Assembly (NCBI GenBank): GCA_014654705.1
Contig: JACVZY010000033.1
Span: 1 to 64,000 of the forward strand
Length of the DNA stretch: 64,000 nt
Reading direction: 5' to 3'
Source of the DNA: Ignavibacteria bacterium
Lineage (GTDB): Bacteria; Bacteroidota; Ignavibacteria; Kapaibacteriales; UBA4661
Shown here: positions 50,396 through 59,009 of the stretch, in pieces
Layout: the number at the start of each line of letters is the position of its first letter
Position numbering within the stretch: position 1 is the first letter of the stretch
Position numbers and translations under genes: made by a program
The notes under the pieces: model-generated
What the model was told of the DNA's origin: nothing
The model's database searches: none
The model's input: the letters and a program-made list of their open reading frames with translations, nothing else

Positions 50396-50514
50396 ACGGC
50401 AAATTTACCCGAAAAATCCTCAGAAAAAAAATCTGGCACAGCGTCTTAAAGATTGTTATTTTACGCGCTTTGGCATGGAACAATTTTCTTATTCACCGTC
50501 ATCGCAACCCCATT

Positions 50515-53500
50515 ATGAAGCGCATTGTTTCGACCTTCTTCGCCTTTACCCTTCTTTTTGCCCTCATGTTCGCTGGCGCACAAAGTTTGACAGCCCAAGA
50601 GAGCTTCCCCGCAAGCAAGGGCGAAGCCGCAGATAAAAAGCCGGAGTGTTATGCTCTGACAAATGTTCGCATCGTCGTTAGCCCCACAAACACGATAGAA
50701 TCGGGAACGGTTGTGATACGCGAAGGGATTATCGAATCGGTCGGCGCGAAAATTACGATTCCGCCTGATGCTGTTATCTATGACCTCAAAGGCAAGGTGG
50801 TCTATCCGTCGTTTATTGAAATGGATAGCGATTATGGTATGCCTGCGCAGCCACCGCCGACTGCACCACAGTTCGGTCGTCGTGGAGCAGAACCGCAATA
50901 CGATTCCAAAACGCAAGGCGCGTACTCATGGAATGAATCACTCAAGCCCGAAAAGCAAGCAAGTGCAGTGTTTGTTGCCAATCCCAAAGCCGCCGATGAA
51001 CTTCGCCGCTTGGGATTTGGTGCTACGCTTTCCTTCCAGCATGACGGTATTGCGCGTGGCGTGGCAGCATTTGTTTCCTTGGGCGATGGCAAAGAAAATA
51101 CGCTCATTCTCAAAGACCGCGCCGCGGCTGAGTTGTCATTGAATCGTGGTTCGTCGCGTCAGGAATATCCGGGTTCGCTCATGGGTGTTCTTGCGCTTTT
51201 GCGCCAAACCTATCTTGATGGCGCATGGTACAAACAAGCTCGTGCTCAGGAGCCACTCAAAACCGAAACAAATCTTTCGCTTGAAGCGTGGAACGCGCTC
51301 CAGTCCTTGCCGCAAATTATGGACGTTTCCGGTAATCGCTTGAATGCATTCCGCGCTGACCGCGTTGGCGATGAAGCAGGCGTACAGTACATATTGCGCA
51401 CCTATGGCGATGAGTATGCGTACATTGAGGATGTAAAGAAGACACAAGCACCGTTTATTACCTCGCTCAATTTTCCGCTTGCCTATAATCTTGACGACCC
51501 GCTTGATGCCTTGAATGTAACACTCATGGAACTCAAAAATTGGGAACTTGCACCCACGAATCCAGCAGCTCTGGAAAAAGCAGGTGTTCAATTTGCTCTT
51601 ACCACTGCGGGTCTTCGCGCGAAGACTGATTTTATGCCGAACCTGCGGACAGCAATTAAGTACGGACTTTCCAAACAGCAAGCACTTGCAGCGCTGACGA
51701 CCGTTCCGGCACAACTTCTCAAAATGGCTGATAAAATTGGTACGATTGAAAAAGGCAAAGTGGCAAACTTGCTCGTTGCATCGGGTGATATTTTTGAAGC
51801 AGAAACGACCATTTTCCACAACTGGGTACAAGGCAAACTGTACGAACTTGCGAACCCTGCCAATGGTGACCTGCGCGGCACGTACACACTCTCACTTGCA
51901 AACGTTGGCGAATATACCTTGACCGTCAAAGGCACTGTGGCAGCACTGCAGACGGAGCTTGTGCAGCCTAACGACACCGTAAAAATCCCCGTGACAATCG
52001 ACCGCACCGGCGGCGGAAACCTTATCACGTTACGCTTTGCTAAAAAAGCTGGCGTAAAAAGCGAAATGGCACTGACGGGCTGGATTGACAGCAAAACAAA
52101 TGGTGACGCATGGTCAGGCAAAGGGCAGGACGAAGCGGGCGTGTGGTTCGCATGGTCGGCAAAGCGCGTGAAGGCTTTTGAAGCACCAGCCCCGAAACCC
52201 GACACGACCAATCCGCTTGCCAAATTGGGCAAACGCTCCTTTCCACCGGTGGAATACGGCTTCACAGCGCTTCCTAAGCAAGAAACCGTTCTCATCAAAA
52301 ATGCAACGCTTTGGACAGCGGAGAAAGACGGTGTTTTGAAGAATACCGATATTGTGCTCAAGGGCGGTAAAATTGCTGCTATCGGGAAAAATCTGACCGA
52401 AGCAGGCGCAACCATCATTGACGGTACGGGCAAACACGTTTCGCCCGGAATTATTGACGAACACTCGCATATCGCGCTGCAAGCTATCAACGAAAGTGGT
52501 CAGACCATAACCTGCGAAGTGCGTGAGGGCGATGTACTCAACCCAGAAGATATTAACATTTACCGCCAGCTTGCCGGAGGCGTTACAACATCGCACCTTT
52601 TGCATGGCTCGGCAAATTCAATTGGCGGGCAAACGCAGATTATCAAACTGCGCTGGGGTTTGGGAGCTGAACAGCTCAAGTTTGAAGGCGCTCCGGGCTT
52701 TGTGAAATTTGCTCTTGGCGAAAACGTGAAGCAAGCGAATTGGGGTGATGCCTACAATGTGCGCTTCCCGCAAACGCGCATGGGCGTTGAGCAAGTATTC
52801 GTCGATGCCTTTACCCGCGCCCGCGAATACGAAGCCGAATGGAAGAATTTTTCTGCTGCAAAGAACACATCAGCTATCGCACCGCGCCGCGACTTGGAGT
52901 TGGACGCATTGGTGGAGATTATCAATAGCAAGCGACTTATTACTTGCCATTCCTACGTTCAGTCCGAGATCACCATGCTGATGCGCGTTACAGAGCAGTT
53001 CGGTTTCCGCGTGAACACCTTTACGCACATTTTGGAAGGCTACAAAGTGGCAGACAAAATGAAAGCGCACGGCGCAAATGCTTCGTCGTTCTCGGATTGG
53101 TGGGCGTACAAAATGGAGGTTGCCGACGCTATCCCTTACAACGGCGCAATCTTGCACGCAATGGGGCTTAATGTTGCCTTCAATTCGGATGATGCCGAAA
53201 TGGCACGTCGCCTGAACCAAGAAGCCGCAAAAGCCGTTAAATACGGCGGTGTGCCGGAAGAAGAGGCATTGAAATTTGTAACGCTCAATCCGGCAAAAAT
53301 GCTGCACATTGACGCAAAGGTTGGAAGCCTGAAAGTCGGCAAAGATGCAGACGTGGTGCTATGGTCGGACAACCCTCTTTCTATCTATGCCCGCGCCGAA
53401 AAAACGTTTGTGGATGGAACACTCTACTACGACCGTGAGCGCGACGCGCAAGTACGCGAAGAAATTCGCCAAGAACGCGCCCGCCTGACACAAGCAATGA

Positions 53501-53598
53501 TGCAAGCAAAAAAAGGTGGCGCTCCCACGCAAGCAGCACCGCCACGCCGCAATTTTGAAAAAATTCATTGCGACACCATTGGCGAAGTGGGCTGGTGA
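50515..53598 (+). CDS. exported tandem amidohydrolase (degenerate plus active halves)
   Basis: A 1027-residue secreted protein starting at ATG 50515, with signal peptide MKRIVSTFFAFTLLFALMFA... cut near LTAQ. Two amidohydrolase (imidazolonepropionase/dihydroorotase-like) units are fused. In the first (~40-470) the metal motif that should read PGFIDxHxH is PSFIEMDSDYG, lacking both His, so it is probably inactive. In the second (~600-1000) the motif is PGIIDEHSHIAL (His near 650), then RLITCHSY, NTFTHILEG and NVAFNSDDAEM supply the remaining ligands. The substrate is unknown; large amidohydrolases of this architecture are typical of Bacteroidota. Confidence 0.9.
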   Translation: MKRIVSTFFAFTLLFALMFAGAQSLTAQESFPASKGEAADKKPECYALTNVRIVVSPTNTIESGTVVIREGIIESVGAKITIPPDAVIYDLKGKVVYPSFIEMDSDYGMPAQPPPTAPQFGRRGAEPQYDSKTQGAYSWNESLKPEKQASAVFVANPKAADELRRLGFGATLSFQHDGIARGVAAFVSLGDGKENTLILKDRAAAELSLNRGSSRQEYPGSLMGVLALLRQTYLDGAWYKQARAQEPLKTETNLSLEAWNALQSLPQIMDVSGNRLNAFRADRVGDEAGVQYILRTYGDEYAYIEDVKKTQAPFITSLNFPLAYNLDDPLDALNVTLMELKNWELAPTNPAALEKAGVQFALTTAGLRAKTDFMPNLRTAIKYGLSKQQALAALTTVPAQLLKMADKIGTIEKGKVANLLVASGDIFEAETTIFHNWVQGKLYELANPANGDLRGTYTLSLANVGEYTLTVKGTVAALQTELVQPNDTVKIPVTIDRTGGGNLITLRFAKKAGVKSEMALTGWIDSKTNGDAWSGKGQDEAGVWFAWSAKRVKAFEAPAPKPDTTNPLAKLGKRSFPPVEYGFTALPKQETVLIKNATLWTAEKDGVLKNTDIVLKGGKIAAIGKNLTEAGATIIDGTGKHVSPGIIDEHSHIALQAINESGQTITCEVREGDVLNPEDINIYRQLAGGVTTSHLLHGSANSIGGQTQIIKLRWGLGAEQLKFEGAPGFVKFALGENVKQANWGDAYNVRFPQTRMGVEQVFVDAFTRAREYEAEWKNFSAAKNTSAIAPRRDLELDALVEIINSKRLITCHSYVQSEITMLMRVTEQFGFRVNTFTHILEGYKVADKMKAHGANASSFSDWWAYKMEVADAIPYNGAILHAMGLNVAFNSDDAEMARRLNQEAAKAVKYGGVPEEEALKFVTLNPAKMLHIDAKVGSLKVGKDADVVLWSDNPLSIYARAEKTFVDGTLYYDRERDAQVREEIRQERARLTQAMMQAKKGGAPTQAAPPRRNFEKIHCDTIGEVGW

Positions 53599-53714: not shown

Positions 53715-53795
53715 AATACTACGGTTCTTTGCAGCACAAATAGTTCTGTGTAATTTGTCCGTTCTGATTTGTTTCACATACCAGCGAGGAAAACG

Positions 53796-54128
53796 TTGAA
53801 ACTCAAACCCGAAAAACTTCTCGAAGAACTCAAGGTTATTGCCGAGACAATCGGTGTTCAGGTGATTATTGACAAAGGTAATTTTTCCGGTGGGCATTGC
53901 CTCGTGTACGACGAGCGCAAAATTGTCTTGAACAAACTCCTGCCGCCGGAGGTAAAAGCCGCAAAGCTCGCACAAAGCCTAACATTTTTCTCCTTGGAAG
54001 GCATCGAAATCAAGCCTGCGCTCCGCGACTTTCTGAATACCGAAAAGCAGCGCCTCGCCTCGCGCACGCAAGATGCTCTCAGCGATGAAGCACAAGCAGT
54101 CGTCAATGATGTTCTTGCGGGGGCATAA
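53796..54128 (+). CDS. small conserved-type hypothetical protein, 110 aa
   Basis: The start is placed at TTG 53796 with GAGG 6 nt before it (GAGGAAAACG); the open frame reaches 27 nt further up to another TTG. The product begins LKLKPEKLLEELKVIAETIGVQV, continues GNFSGGHCLVYDERKIVLNKLLPPEVKAAKLAQSL, and ends in a helical tail. The Gly-Gly-His-Cys motif and LNKLLPPE look conserved-type, but no characterised family is recognised. A promoter-like TTG-N19-TAATTTG lies 40-70 bp upstream. It is followed by the PEPCK-like gene after ~100 bp. Confidence 0.7.
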   Translation: MKLKPEKLLEELKVIAETIGVQVIIDKGNFSGGHCLVYDERKIVLNKLLPPEVKAAKLAQSLTFFSLEGIEIKPALRDFLNTEKQRLASRTQDALSDEAQAVVNDVLAGA

Positions 54129-54226: not shown

Positions 54227-56749
54227 ATGGCACGAAAACCACCCTCCCGTATTCAGAAGAAGAAAGTGTCGGCAACGCAAGAATCTGCTCTGCCCATAGA
54301 AAATCTTACTTTGCAGCCTGCACCGCAACTCGCTCCGCAAGAAATTCCGATGCACGACTCACAACCAGAGCCTGTGCCTGCGGCACTTGCCGAGCCGCAG
54401 GCACAGGCTCCAAAAGGTGCAAAACCGAGACCAAGCCCTAAAAGTCAAGCGCCAAACCCTAAGCCGCAAGCGCTGAAGCAGCAAAGTGCCGAACCCGTAC
54501 AATCTGCTCCGGCAAAACCCAGTCCAAGAAAAAGCGAGCAGACGACGACGACGACAAAATCTACTCCAATCAAACCTGAGCCACTACCGCAGATTCTGCC
54601 GTTGCCGCAGTTTTTGGCGCAAAAACATGGTTTGCACAATCTTGGGCAAATCTTTTACAATCTTTCTACCCCCGAACTCTACGAGCATATTTTGTTCTTG
54701 CGCGAAGGTGTGATGTCAGCGCACGGTGCGGTGATGGTGGAAACGACCCCGAATACAAAACTTGCGGTACGTGATAAATTCATCGTCGAGGAAGACGTTC
54801 ACAAGGACAATATTGCGTGGGGCGAGGCAAATCGTGCTATTGAGTCGGTAAAATTCAACGCGCTCAAAGCACGCATTGGAGCGTACTTACAGAAACGCAA
54901 TGTCTATGTACAGGATTGTTTTGCGGGTTCTGATTCGCGCCTCAAAGTACCGATGCGCTTTGTTACCGAAAATGCGTGGCAGAGCCTTTTTGTACGCAAT
55001 ACATTCATTGAAGCACTGCCGGCGGAACTTCGTCAATTTGACCCCCGCATGACGATTATTGTTTTGCCCGGCTTCAAAGCAATTCCCGAAATAGACGGCA
55101 CACGCGCAGAGACATTTGTTCTGTACGACTTTTCGCAGCGCCTCGCCATCATCGGCGGAACGCGCCATGCGGAGGAAATTAAGAAAGCAGCCTTCACGGT
55201 AATGAGCTATGCGATGCCGCTCCGCCGTGTGCTGCCAATGCGCTGTGCGGCTACTACCGGCTCAAACGGTGACACACTTCTGCTTTTTGGTACCAACGGC
55301 GCAGGCAAAACCACACTTGCTGCCGATTCCACGCGGAATCTTATTGGTGATGACGCAAACGGTTGGGGCGATGAGGGTGTGTTTGCTTTTGAAAGCGGTG
55401 CTTACGCTAAGGCGCAAGGCGTTCTGCCTGAAACAGAACCCTCTATCTATGAGGCTTCACGGACATTTGGCACAATTCTCGAAAATGTGAAATTTGACCC
55501 CGCGACCCGTATTGCTAATCTTGCCGATACTTCTATCAGCGACAATGCGCGTATTTCTTACACACTTGGGCAACTTTCTCCGCAGCAACCGCTTGCTGCC
55601 AAGTTGCGCGGCGCACATCCGAAAAATGCAGTGTTTTTGGTGAATGATGCCTTCGGTGTGCTGCCCCCAGTGGCACGATTGACGCAAGAGCAGGCGCTCT
55701 TTTTCTATCTATCGGGCTATGCGGCAAAAAATCCCGTCGGCGAACCGAAAGGCGAACCGCGAGCCGTCTTCAGCGCGTGCTTCGGAGAAACGTTTATGGT
55801 GCAAGACCCGCTTACATACTCAAATCTCTTCCGTGAGCGCTTGCGCCGCAATAATACAAAAGTTTGGCTTGTCAATACGGGCTGGCAGGGTGGTACGCAA
55901 GCAACCGGCAGTCGAATTAAGCGTGATTATTCTCGTGCGATTATTGCAGCCATCACATCCGGTGCCCTCGACTCGGTACAGTACAACACTGACCCCGTTT
56001 TCAACCTGAGTGTTCCGGCGGTATGCCCTGGAGTTCCGGCAGCAATGCTGAATCCGCGCAATGCGTGGGCTGACCGTGCAGTGTACGAGAAAACTGCACA
56101 AAAACTGCTGCAACTGCTTACAGAAAATTTCAAAAAATACGCCTCGCGCGTTGATAAATCCGTCGTGCAAGCGCTTTCACCGACTTCGCAACAAGCTCCA
56201 CAGAAGCAGACTCCGCCCCAAACACAACCCACTAAGGCAAATGCTAAAACAGGCATTCAAACAAATGATCAAGCAAGTACGGAAGCGCCATTGGAAGTTC
56301 GTACAGTAGTTTCTGAAGTCGCTGCGCCTGATGATGAGATACTCACAGAAGCACCCACAGGCAAAAAAATTCCGGCAAAAAAAGTGAAGCCGACTAAGAA
56401 AACACTGCGTAAGCCAATTCATATTGACGACGACGAGGAAGAGGCAGAGGTTGGCGATACAGGCTCACTCGAAAACCTTGAGGAGCCATATATTGACGAC
56501 AGCGGCAATGGTGATGACAACGTTATCATTCCGCCAAGTCTCTTTGCGAGTGAGCCGGGCGGCGCATTCCGTCCAGATGACGAAATGCTGATAGCACCCG
56601 CTTTTGAGGAAGAAGAAGATGATAACGATGGCGAGGAATCGGAAAACACTATCGCCGCCGACGGCGGGGCAGAGCAAGATTCCGGTCAGACTGCCTTCAA
56701 GGGCGGTCGCCGTCGCAGAGGTGGTCGTGGTCGCCGTCGTCCGCGATGA
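54227..56749 (+). CDS. PEP carboxykinase (ATP)-like protein with long disordered extensions
   Basis: An 840-residue protein whose residues ~125-650 align with ATP-dependent PEP carboxykinase (IKKAAFTVMSYAMPLRRVLPM, Walker A-like GTNGAGKTT at 355-363, LIGDDANGWGDEGVFAFESG, DAFGVLPPVARLT, FSACFG, LVNTGWQGG). Conserved are the Lys pair 319/320, Lys361, Asp375/376 and the Arg of NARISY. Changed are the oxaloacetate Arg of GRSPKDK (here L179), the Tyr before GEMKK (H314) and the Mn ligand His of MHC (R339). An N-terminal ~115-residue Pro/Ala/Gln/Lys-rich tail and a C-terminal ~190-residue acidic tail ending GGRRRRGGRGRRRPR have no family counterpart. Carboxykinase activity is doubtful; a moonlighting or RNA-linked role is possible. 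Confidence 0.85.
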   Translation: MARKPPSRIQKKKVSATQESALPIENLTLQPAPQLAPQEIPMHDSQPEPVPAALAEPQAQAPKGAKPRPSPKSQAPNPKPQALKQQSAEPVQSAPAKPSPRKSEQTTTTTKSTPIKPEPLPQILPLPQFLAQKHGLHNLGQIFYNLSTPELYEHILFLREGVMSAHGAVMVETTPNTKLAVRDKFIVEEDVHKDNIAWGEANRAIESVKFNALKARIGAYLQKRNVYVQDCFAGSDSRLKVPMRFVTENAWQSLFVRNTFIEALPAELRQFDPRMTIIVLPGFKAIPEIDGTRAETFVLYDFSQRLAIIGGTRHAEEIKKAAFTVMSYAMPLRRVLPMRCAATTGSNGDTLLLFGTNGAGKTTLAADSTRNLIGDDANGWGDEGVFAFESGAYAKAQGVLPETEPSIYEASRTFGTILENVKFDPATRIANLADTSISDNARISYTLGQLSPQQPLAAKLRGAHPKNAVFLVNDAFGVLPPVARLTQEQALFFYLSGYAAKNPVGEPKGEPRAVFSACFGETFMVQDPLTYSNLFRERLRRNNTKVWLVNTGWQGGTQATGSRIKRDYSRAIIAAITSGALDSVQYNTDPVFNLSVPAVCPGVPAAMLNPRNAWADRAVYEKTAQKLLQLLTENFKKYASRVDKSVVQALSPTSQQAPQKQTPPQTQPTKANAKTGIQTNDQASTEAPLEVRTVVSEVAAPDDEILTEAPTGKKIPAKKVKPTKKTLRKPIHIDDDEEEAEVGDTGSLENLEEPYIDDSGNGDDNVIIPPSLFASEPGGAFRPDDEMLIAPAFEEEEDDNDGEESENTIAADGGAEQDSGQTAFKGGRRRRGGRGRRRPR

Positions 56750-57521: not shown

Positions 57522-57581
57522 GCAATCAATCTTCCTTGTACTTGAATTTTGTTGTATCACCATTTTCCGGGAGTACCGCGC

Positions 57582-59009
57582 ATGACGTTTCATTCCTACA
57601 ACCCCGAAGGCTTCTATGATGAGCTTTTTCAGCCCGACGGCACACCACGTGCGGGCGCAAAAAAGCTGGTGGACAAAATTAACTCGCTTGGCACAGACGA
57701 CATCCGCCTCCGTCAGCAAGCCGCCGAGAGTACACTTATGAACTTGGGTATTACCTTCAATGTCTATGGTGACGATGAAGGTGTGGAAAAAATCTTTCCC
57801 TTTGATCTCATTCCGCGTATCGTCGAGGCTGTGGAATGGCATAAGCTCCAAACGGGCTTATATCAACGTATCAAGGCGCTAAATCTCTTTTTGCAGGATA
57901 TTTACCATGAGCAAAAAATTCTCAAGGACGGCGTCATTCCTGAGTTTGTGATTTCCACAAGTAAAGCCTTTTTGCCACAATGCAAGGGATTGGAACCGCC
58001 CAAAGGCGTATGGTGTCATATCACCGGCACGGATATTATCCGCGACAAAGATGGTACGTTCTATGTGCTGGAAGATAATTTGCGCTGTCCCTCCGGTGTT
58101 TCCTACGTTCTGGAAAATCGTCAGGTAATGAAGCGCACGTTTCCTGAGGTCTTTGCTACGTCTAATGTTGTGCCCGTGGATGACTACTCTTCGCGCCTTC
58201 TGGACGTATTGCAGTGGCTTTCGGGGCGCACGAATCCTGTTTGCGCAGTACTCACGCCGGGCATCTATAATTCTGCCTACTTTGAGCATTCCTTTCTGGC
58301 GCGGCAAATGGGTATTGAACTTGTGGAAGGGCGTGATTTGGTTGTTGTCAATGGCATAGTACAAATGCGTACCACCAAAGGATTGCGCCCTGTGGACGTG
58401 ATTTATCGGCGCGTGGATGATACATTTCTGGACCCGACGGTTTTCAATCCTGATTCGCTTTTGGGCGTTCCGGGCATTATGGATGCGTACCGCAAAGGCA
58501 ACGTTGCGCTGGCAAATGCGCCCGGCACAGGGGTTGCGGACGACAAAGTTGTGTATGCGTACGTTCCCAAAATGATTCAATACTATTTGGACGAAGAAGC
58601 AATTTTACCCAATGTACCGACCTACGTGTGCTGGGACGATGCCGAGCGCGAATACGTGCTGGACAACATCGAACAACTCGTCGTGAAAGCTGCCAACGAG
58701 TCCGGCGGCTATGGAATGCTGGTAGGACCGCACGCTACAAAAGAAGACCACGCAAAATTTCGTGAATTAGTGGCTGCAAACCCGCGTAATTACATCGCGC
58801 AGCCGACCATTTCTCTCTCTCGTGTCCCCACTTTTGTTGACGAAGTTTTTGAGGGACGGCACGTGGACTTGCGCCCGTATATTCTCTATGGCGAAGATAT
58901 TTTCGTTATGCCGGGCGGACTGACTCGCGTGGCACTGCGCAAGGGTTCGCTGGTGGTAAACTCTTCACAAGGTGGCGGTAGCAAGGATACGTGGGTGCTG
59001 GGGAGTTAG
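57582..59009 (+). CDS. circularly permuted ATP-grasp protein (DUF404/407 type)
   Basis: A 475-residue protein of the circularly permuted ATP-grasp group. ATG 57582 is preferred over TTG 57549. It contains NPEGFYDELF near the N-terminus, PPKGVWCHITGTDIIRDKDGTFYVLEDNLRCPSGVSY, VIYRRVDDTFLDP, VVKAANESGGYGMLVGP and LRPYILYGEDIFVMPGGLTRVA. Members are normally encoded with an alpha-E (DUF403) protein and a transglutaminase and are thought to make a peptide-like product. Neither partner is present here; the next genes are the AT-rich cassette. Confidence 0.87.
   Translation: MTFHSYNPEGFYDELFQPDGTPRAGAKKLVDKINSLGTDDIRLRQQAAESTLMNLGITFNVYGDDEGVEKIFPFDLIPRIVEAVEWHKLQTGLYQRIKALNLFLQDIYHEQKILKDGVIPEFVISTSKAFLPQCKGLEPPKGVWCHITGTDIIRDKDGTFYVLEDNLRCPSGVSYVLENRQVMKRTFPEVFATSNVVPVDDYSSRLLDVLQWLSGRTNPVCAVLTPGIYNSAYFEHSFLARQMGIELVEGRDLVVVNGIVQMRTTKGLRPVDVIYRRVDDTFLDPTVFNPDSLLGVPGIMDAYRKGNVALANAPGTGVADDKVVYAYVPKMIQYYLDEEAILPNVPTYVCWDDAEREYVLDNIEQLVVKAANESGGYGMLVGPHATKEDHAKFRELVAANPRNYIAQPTISLSRVPTFVDEVFEGRHVDLRPYILYGEDIFVMPGGLTRVALRKGSLVVNSSQGGGSKDTWVLGS

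Follow-up and report, generated by a model that had tools for sequence, protein, structure and literature searches.

The window, that is, the whole 64,000-nucleotide stretch of DNA that was analyzed, carries at positions 54227−56749 of the forward strand an open reading frame of 840 codons plus a stop, with exactly the limits given in the first-pass annotation. The sole Pfam family on its product, P0001, is PEPCK_ATP (PF01293), which matches residues 141−605 with an E value of 8e-160 and a score of 533 bits against a gathering cut-off of 26.5, so that by sequence the protein belongs to the ATP-dependent PEP carboxykinases (ATP-PEPCKs). Six NCBIfam PEPCK models also match, and none of the six reaches its curated cut-off (495.8 against 590.05 for TIGR00224). 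The closest solved structure by sequence is the T. thermophilus ATP-PEPCK 1j3b (E 1e-145), and over the columns aligned to the E. coli enzyme P0001 is 45% identical to the T. thermophilus protein and 38% identical to that of E. coli. The features of the locus are collected in Table 1.

Table 1. Position of the PEPCK-like gene, its parts and its neighbors in the window
Feature	Position	Strand	Basis
Candidate psi-PEPCK gene, a long-tailed ATP-PEPCK homologue whose active site is eroded	54227..56749	+	ORF, Pfam, alignments
N-terminal tail, aa 1−124: begins with basic MARKP..KKK and continues as a P/A/Q/S/T-rich linker lacking aromatics	54227..54598	+	predicted disordered
PEPCK-like core, about aa 125−645, predicted PEPCK fold	54599..56161	+	Pfam, alignment, AlphaFold2, Foldseek
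L179 codon (place of E. coli Arg65)	54761..54763	+	alignment
H314 codon (place of Tyr207)	55166..55168	+	alignment
R339 codon (place of His232, Mn ligand)	55241..55243	+	alignment
P-loop GTNGAGKTT, aa 355−363	55289..55315	+	Gly, Lys and Thr of Walker A retained; changes at Leu249, Ser250 and Thr252
C-terminal tail, about aa 646−840: Q/P/A-rich, KK-rich, acidic; motif around SLFASEPGGAFRPDD	56162..56746	+	predicted disordered
Terminal RG-rich block, 20 residues	56687..56746	+	sequence; genus comparison
1042-aa amidohydrolase-family protein, upstream	50470..53598		
119-aa protein, no Pfam family reaching cut-off, immediately upstream	53769..54128		
Circularly permuted ATP-grasp protein, downstream	57549..59009		

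The gene is flanked by the amidohydrolase, the 119-aa protein, a DUF2459 protein and the ATP-grasp protein. An ORF like that of the 119-aa protein occurs in the loci of the related genomes G001, G002 and G004, and ORFs of similar length and ends lie beside the gene in the loci of the genus, part of which were scanned. The neighborhood was considered as a functional clue and set aside, as the flanking genes suggest no pathway. Scanning the window for Rfam families and for tRNAs gave no matches. The named loci closest to the window belong to assemblies of Candidatus Kapaibacterium sp. and Ignavibacteria bacterium and reach 67−71% identity in their best segment.

An AlphaFold2 model of P0001, built from an alignment of 9 sequences, has a mean pLDDT of 59.9, with most of the core between 70 and 90. 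Foldseek returned 1xkv_B as the best match of the model (E 8.9e-60, TM by target length 0.90). The pLDDT falls below 50 at residues 175−179, 357−366 and 499−522, and the model is thus uninformative on the geometry of the active site. The residue correspondence comes from alignments with 1j3b (T. thermophilus) and 1oen (E. coli).

These alignments bear out the first-pass annotation, which had proposed that an Arg, a Tyr and the Mn-ligand His of ATP-PEPCK are replaced while other catalytic residues remain. The places of Arg65, Tyr207 and His232 of the E. coli enzyme are occupied by L179, H314 and R339, and the three residues are not displaced elsewhere in the protein because the flanking columns align without gaps. 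Lys212/213 (K319/K320), Lys254/Thr255 (K361/T362), Asp268/269 (D375/D376), the Arg of the NARISY motif (R442, Arg333 in E. coli) and the equivalent of Lys288 are all kept. Further changes affect Gly209 (E316), Ser250 (Asn), Thr252, Glu270 (Ala) and His271 (Asn), and the near-invariant AGTxxG stretch at T. thermophilus 377−382, which we take to be part of the lid in ATP-type PEPCKs, is replaced. Arg65 presumably belongs to the oxaloacetate/CO2 site. Solved E. coli mutants whose titles name Arg65, Tyr207, Lys213, Lys254 and Asp269 (6crt, 6at3, 2py7, 6v2n and 6com) are among the structures listed by Foldseek, which marks these positions as sites of interest. In PEPCKs, one Lys, one His and one Asp residue make up metal site 1, and a mobile lid matters for catalysis (PMC4370629).

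The distribution of these substitutions was followed in a survey of 99 genomes, the window's own (G000) included, in which G000−G007 represent the genus and G008 and G009 the other genera of the family. PEPCK_ATP is present in 93 of the 99, and when the search was restricted to the family, the gene turned up in all ten of its genomes. Arg, Tyr and His occupy the places of Arg65, Tyr207 and His232 in all 46 aligned rows outside the tailed lineage, and also in G009b, one of two high-scoring PEPCK_ATP proteins of G009. The combination R65L, Y207H and H232R is common to six of the eight genomes of the genus, counting G003, whose gene is split into two halves by contig ends; this, together with the 46 canonical outside rows, excludes chance or an assembly error as the source of the three substitutions.

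Every genome of the genus, and G008, encodes a divergent PEPCK_ATP protein in a long frame together with a GTP-dependent PEPCK (GTP-PEPCK), the unsplit divergent copies scoring 179−535 bits. An eroded active site beside a GTP-PEPCK is thus found in nine of the ten family genomes, the tenth being G009, the third genus, which has no GTP-PEPCK. The eroded copies differ in what has been lost. G000, G001, G002, G004 and G007 have R65L, Y207H, H232R and E270A, and the two halves of G003 together show the same four changes. G005 and G006 have R65G, Y207H, K213N, R333I and E270A and have lost Lys288, with His232 kept. G008 has a gap at Arg65 and carries Y207G, K213Y, H232R, K254R (the Walker lysine), D268H and E270A; its assembly is 70% complete, and its branch in the tree is very long. 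Each branch has thus broken the metal and phosphate sites in its own combination; the H232R of G008 may have a common origin with that of the window's branch or have arisen separately.

In 47 rows including G009b, 121 near-invariant columns (at most one exception) were defined, and 23 of them were chosen as catalytic. P0001 is changed at 9 of the 23 and the eight unsplit eroded copies at 7−14; G009b, itself among the 47 defining rows, is changed at none. At the other 98 columns P0001 has 23 changes and the eight copies have 23−56. The excess at catalytic over other near-invariant positions is not significant in any of the eight (Fisher p 0.07−0.82), so that the active site is clearly eroded but the erosion is not confined to it.

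G009b (locus L042) is canonical at the catalytic columns and carries a C-terminal extension of 187 residues. The two ATP-PEPCKs of G009 (L042 and L043) are both intact and of different subtypes, the second being untailed. A tree on 514 core columns and 55 rows, from which the G003 halves were omitted, as they were from a second one, places the eroded copies and G009b on one side of a branch with support of 98/99. In the second tree of 54 rows, which leaves out G008 (end branch 7.2), this support is 100/99, and the seven eroded rows of the genus separate from G009b with 100/100. G009a falls elsewhere, with L019 and L062. G009b is 66% identical to the canonical L014 and 54% to P0001, and this greater closeness to a canonical enzyme weighs against the pseudoenzyme reading given below. 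Its nearest rows are ATP-PEPCKs of the order, for which reason the lineage is read as the native enzyme. Orthology is supported by a PASTA-domain gene, which adjoins G009b and in G002 is found after the gene cluster.

A wider draw from the class gave a PEPCK_ATP match in 271 of 391 genomes. Outside the family, and apart from a weakly matching group of 614−623 aa proteins, the best E value was weaker than 1e-190 in 13 of the matching genomes; G031, G051 and G352 are pieces, and the rest are G112, G126, G175, G196, G236, G264, G354, G379, G381 and G393. Further eroded copies may therefore exist elsewhere in the class. The weak PF01293 matches in other families were considered as more dead PEPCKs and rejected, as four of the five loci read belong to a different group. 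These four (L090, L091, L093 and L094, from G204, G099, G203 and G105 of the same class) encode the 614−623 aa proteins, in which the PF01293 match is weak and partial (two of them were scanned and scored 87.9 and 85.6 bits); they have a GMTATGKST P-loop and a common C-terminal RPR[KR]PG.WRWR, and represent a distant PEPCK-like family distinct from the eroded tailed PEPCK.

The first-pass annotation had raised the question of a second canonical pckA in the genome. A search of the whole of G000 (5.72 Mb, 99% complete) found none of the ATP type, P0001 being the only PEPCK_ATP protein, and it did find a second PEPCK, a single canonical GTP-PEPCK that matches solved GTP-PEPCKs along its whole length (9e34, E 1.6e-283). 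PEPCK_GTP occurs in 11 of the 99 genomes surveyed, and nine of these are exactly the nine with an eroded ATP-PEPCK. The GTP-PEPCKs of G000−G008 are 68−95% identical to that of G000 or G008 and 28−31% identical to those of the other two genomes, G049 and G057, which makes a single acquisition in the ancestor of G000−G008 likely. G049 and G057, both outside the family, keep a high-scoring ATP-PEPCK beside the GTP-PEPCK, and a second PEPCK alone therefore does not cause erosion. The eroded copy of G008 is 29% identical to P0001, whereas the GTP-PEPCKs are 70% identical. At locus L041 of G008 the eroded frame (47−2536), the most eroded of the copies, precedes the GTP-PEPCK frame (2631−4631) on the same strand with 94 bases between them, an arrangement that is possibly an operon. 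The segment L041:47−4631 includes a run of N, with 44 X in the GTP-PEPCK translation.

Selection was estimated as dN/dS by the Nei−Gojobori method in six pairs. In the core of the eroded copies the values are 0.028−0.099, as against 0.011−0.071 for the GTP-PEPCKs of the same pairs. Core dS is above 1.5, close to saturation, in four of the six pairs; the two pairs with core dS below 1 are G002/G004 (dN/dS 0.028) and G005/G006 (0.099). For canonical PEPCKs the range is 0.018−0.112 (six of seven pairs with a value), in frames that include upstream sequence that is perhaps not part of the gene. The tails give 0.22−0.42 at the N-terminus (four of six pairs with a value) and 0.12−0.27 at the C-terminus (five of six). 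The protein is therefore very probably made and kept, tails included.

The long low-complexity tails and RG-rich end described in the first-pass annotation are also borne out: disorder is predicted for about 125 residues at the N-terminus and 190 at the C-terminus, with pLDDT below 50 for most of residues 1−129 and nearly all of 654−840. By alignment, 133 residues precede T. thermophilus residue 7 and 191 follow residue 524. A C-terminal tail of 172−215 aa is found in all ten family copies (for G003 in its C-terminal half), and one of 0−9 aa in all 43 other stop-terminated PEPCK frames, outside the tailed lineage; the count excludes three rows, namely, E. coli and T. thermophilus, which had been trimmed to the aligned segment, and L032, which runs off its contig. 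The N-terminal tail measures 66−214 aa in the eroded copies (for G003 in the N-terminal half) versus 5 residues in G009b. Among the sequences compared, the tails, predicted to be disordered, are specific to the family.

Within the genus, all eight members begin with MAR, all eight have an R- or RG-rich C-terminal end (with RGG in seven; that of G003 is R-rich without RGG), which is absent in G008, and all eight carry a variant of LF[AV]...[FY][RH]P in the C-terminal tail. When the C-terminal tails were compared against shuffled sequences, none of 300 shuffles scored as high for G000 against G007, the G003 C-terminal half or G005, or for G007 against G006, and 3 of 300 did so for G007 against G005, so that most of the pairs compared within the genus are related. 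The last pair showed no similarity above shuffles once the final 28−32 residues were removed (117 of 300), nor did the G003 C-terminal half against G005 (270 of 300). The G009b tail showed no similarity above shuffled controls to those of G000, G005 and G007 (125−190 of 300 as high) and gave a weak signal with G008 (11 of 300); comparisons with the G008 tail give weak signals at best, from 11 to 172 of 300. Since the G009b tail lacks clear similarity to those of the genus, neither a common origin of the tails nor a tail-first order is proven. In G000, the 190-aa C-terminal tail used as query matched only itself at E values up to 10. Two exact RG codon patterns had one match each in G000, both in the P0001 gene (reversed controls 4 and 3), which gives no support to a set of RG-tailed proteins.

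From these data, it appears probable that the gene represents the ATP-PEPCK native to the bacterial order and passed on vertically, that its job came to be covered by a second PEPCK, and that in one family it turned into a pseudoenzyme, retained for its fold and its tails. The protein descends from an active enzyme family and has lost key catalytic residues, as the trees and residue tables indicate, and the low dN/dS of the core in all six pairs indicates that it is kept by selection. The order of events is taken from the tree and the gene content. First, the ATP-PEPCK of the family would have carried a C-terminal disordered extension, as the intact copy of one genome, G009, does. Another PEPCK, of the GTP type in G000−G008 and a second ATP-type one in G009, is present in each genome and could carry the carboxykinase job. 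The equivalents of Arg65, Tyr207, Ser250 and Glu270 are lost in all eroded copies, and residues of the metal and phosphate sites in branch-specific combinations, including the Walker lysine in G008. Finally, purifying selection keeps the fold of the core and, less strictly, the tails. The last three steps are supported by the comparisons above, and the loss of carboxykinase activity in P0001 can be strongly inferred from its residues. That the tails preceded the loss of the active site is plausible, given the tail beside an intact site in G009, a single genome. In the window's branch (six genomes) the residues kept make nucleotide binding possible, and the core may be a noncatalytic, possibly ATP-binding globular hub, from which the basic N-terminal tail, the acidic C-terminal tail with its conserved short motif and the RG-rich end would contact partners, most likely RNA or another polyanion. 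An RNA- or protein-scaffold role is offered purely as a hypothesis, its RNA-linked part being suggested by the composition of the tails.

The first-pass annotation had left a choice between a changed phosphotransferase and a nucleotide-binding protein with a regulatory or RNA-linked role. A changed enzyme, which would still bind ATP and transfer phosphate to, or hydrolyze it on, a new small molecule or protein, would agree with the enzyme-like dN/dS of the core and with the retention of the Walker A Lys and Thr, Asp268/269, Lys288 and Arg333 in all five unsplit rows of the window's branch and in the C-terminal half of G003. However, the losses of Lys213, Arg333 and Lys288 in G005 and G006, and the Arg and His found in G008 for the Walker lysine and Asp268, limit a new enzymatic role to six of the nine eroded copies. 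This alternative is unlikely. The genomes favor a loss of carboxykinase function under continued purifying selection and argue against a single phosphotransferase activity conserved across the family, so that the earlier interpretation is supported in part.

Also improbable is a regulatory role in which the dead paralogue binds the GTP-PEPCK and tunes or localizes it. The two co-occur in nine of nine genomes and are closely spaced, with the eroded gene first, in G008; however, the same co-occurrence would be expected if the GTP-PEPCK had merely replaced the activity, the genes lie on different contigs in the eight genomes of the genus, and G009 has a tailed copy and no GTP-PEPCK. It is very improbable that P0001 still acts as a PEP carboxykinase through a rearranged site: the high Pfam score, the overall fold and the retention of Lys212/213, Asp269 and Arg333 in the window's branch would fit, but part of the lid has been replaced, as have residues canonical in 46 of 46 outside rows, all six NCBIfam models, TIGR00224 among them, stay below their cut-offs, and the same genome has a canonical GTP-PEPCK. 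A pseudogene in decay, to which the lost catalytic residues and the long branches of G008 and G005/G006 might point, can be dismissed, as the eight unsplit eroded copies have intact frames of 811−975 aa (G003 being cut by contig ends), start and end are similar within the genus, and dN/dS is 0.03−0.10 in the core and below 0.43 in the tails where computable.

Within the pseudoenzyme reading, the family may tentatively be seen as a living series of stages from enzyme to scaffold, although this extension is itself rather doubtful. It would run from the intact G009 copy to G000−G004 and G007, which would have lost substrate binding and could still hold a nucleotide, then to G005 and G006, with other metal and phosphate residues lost, and to G008, with nucleotide-binding residues lost. 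The tail function would have come first, the second PEPCK would have freed the core, and the series would end in a hub of gluconeogenic origin associated with RNA or RNP.

The best-known pseudoenzymes are eukaryotic signaling or RNA proteins, and no PEPCK pseudoenzyme was found in the open-access literature searched. If the reading is correct, a bacterial gluconeogenic enzyme has turned into a nonenzyme for which an intact tailed sister and several eroded stages exist, and the series would allow a direct test of whether a second function precedes the loss of catalysis. It would also be a warning for annotation, in that ATP-PEPCK activity does not necessarily follow from a PEPCK_ATP match far over the Pfam cut-off.

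Among known proteins, P0001 resembles the ATP-dependent PEP carboxykinase PckA (EC 4.1.1.49, PF01293) in its full-length domain match, its predicted fold and, in its branch, the P-loop and the Asp-Asp motif, but differs in Arg65, Tyr207, His232, Glu270 and part of the lid and in its two tails. The GTP-dependent enzyme (PF00821/PF17297) is related in fold to the model (TM by target length about 0.6), although Foldseek places the ATP type far above it, and it is present in the genome as a separate, canonical and conserved gene. The fungal pseudonucleases Ssd1/Dis3L2 are, like P0001 as read here, inactive descendants of enzymes in which regions besides the active site are conserved (PMC8097288). 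They differ in being unrelated, eukaryotic and, per the authors, RNA-binding (PMC8097288). By analogy, they may be regarded as the closest precedent in concept, as their authors propose that a second function arose before repeated loss of activity, via a bifunctional intermediate (PMC8097288).
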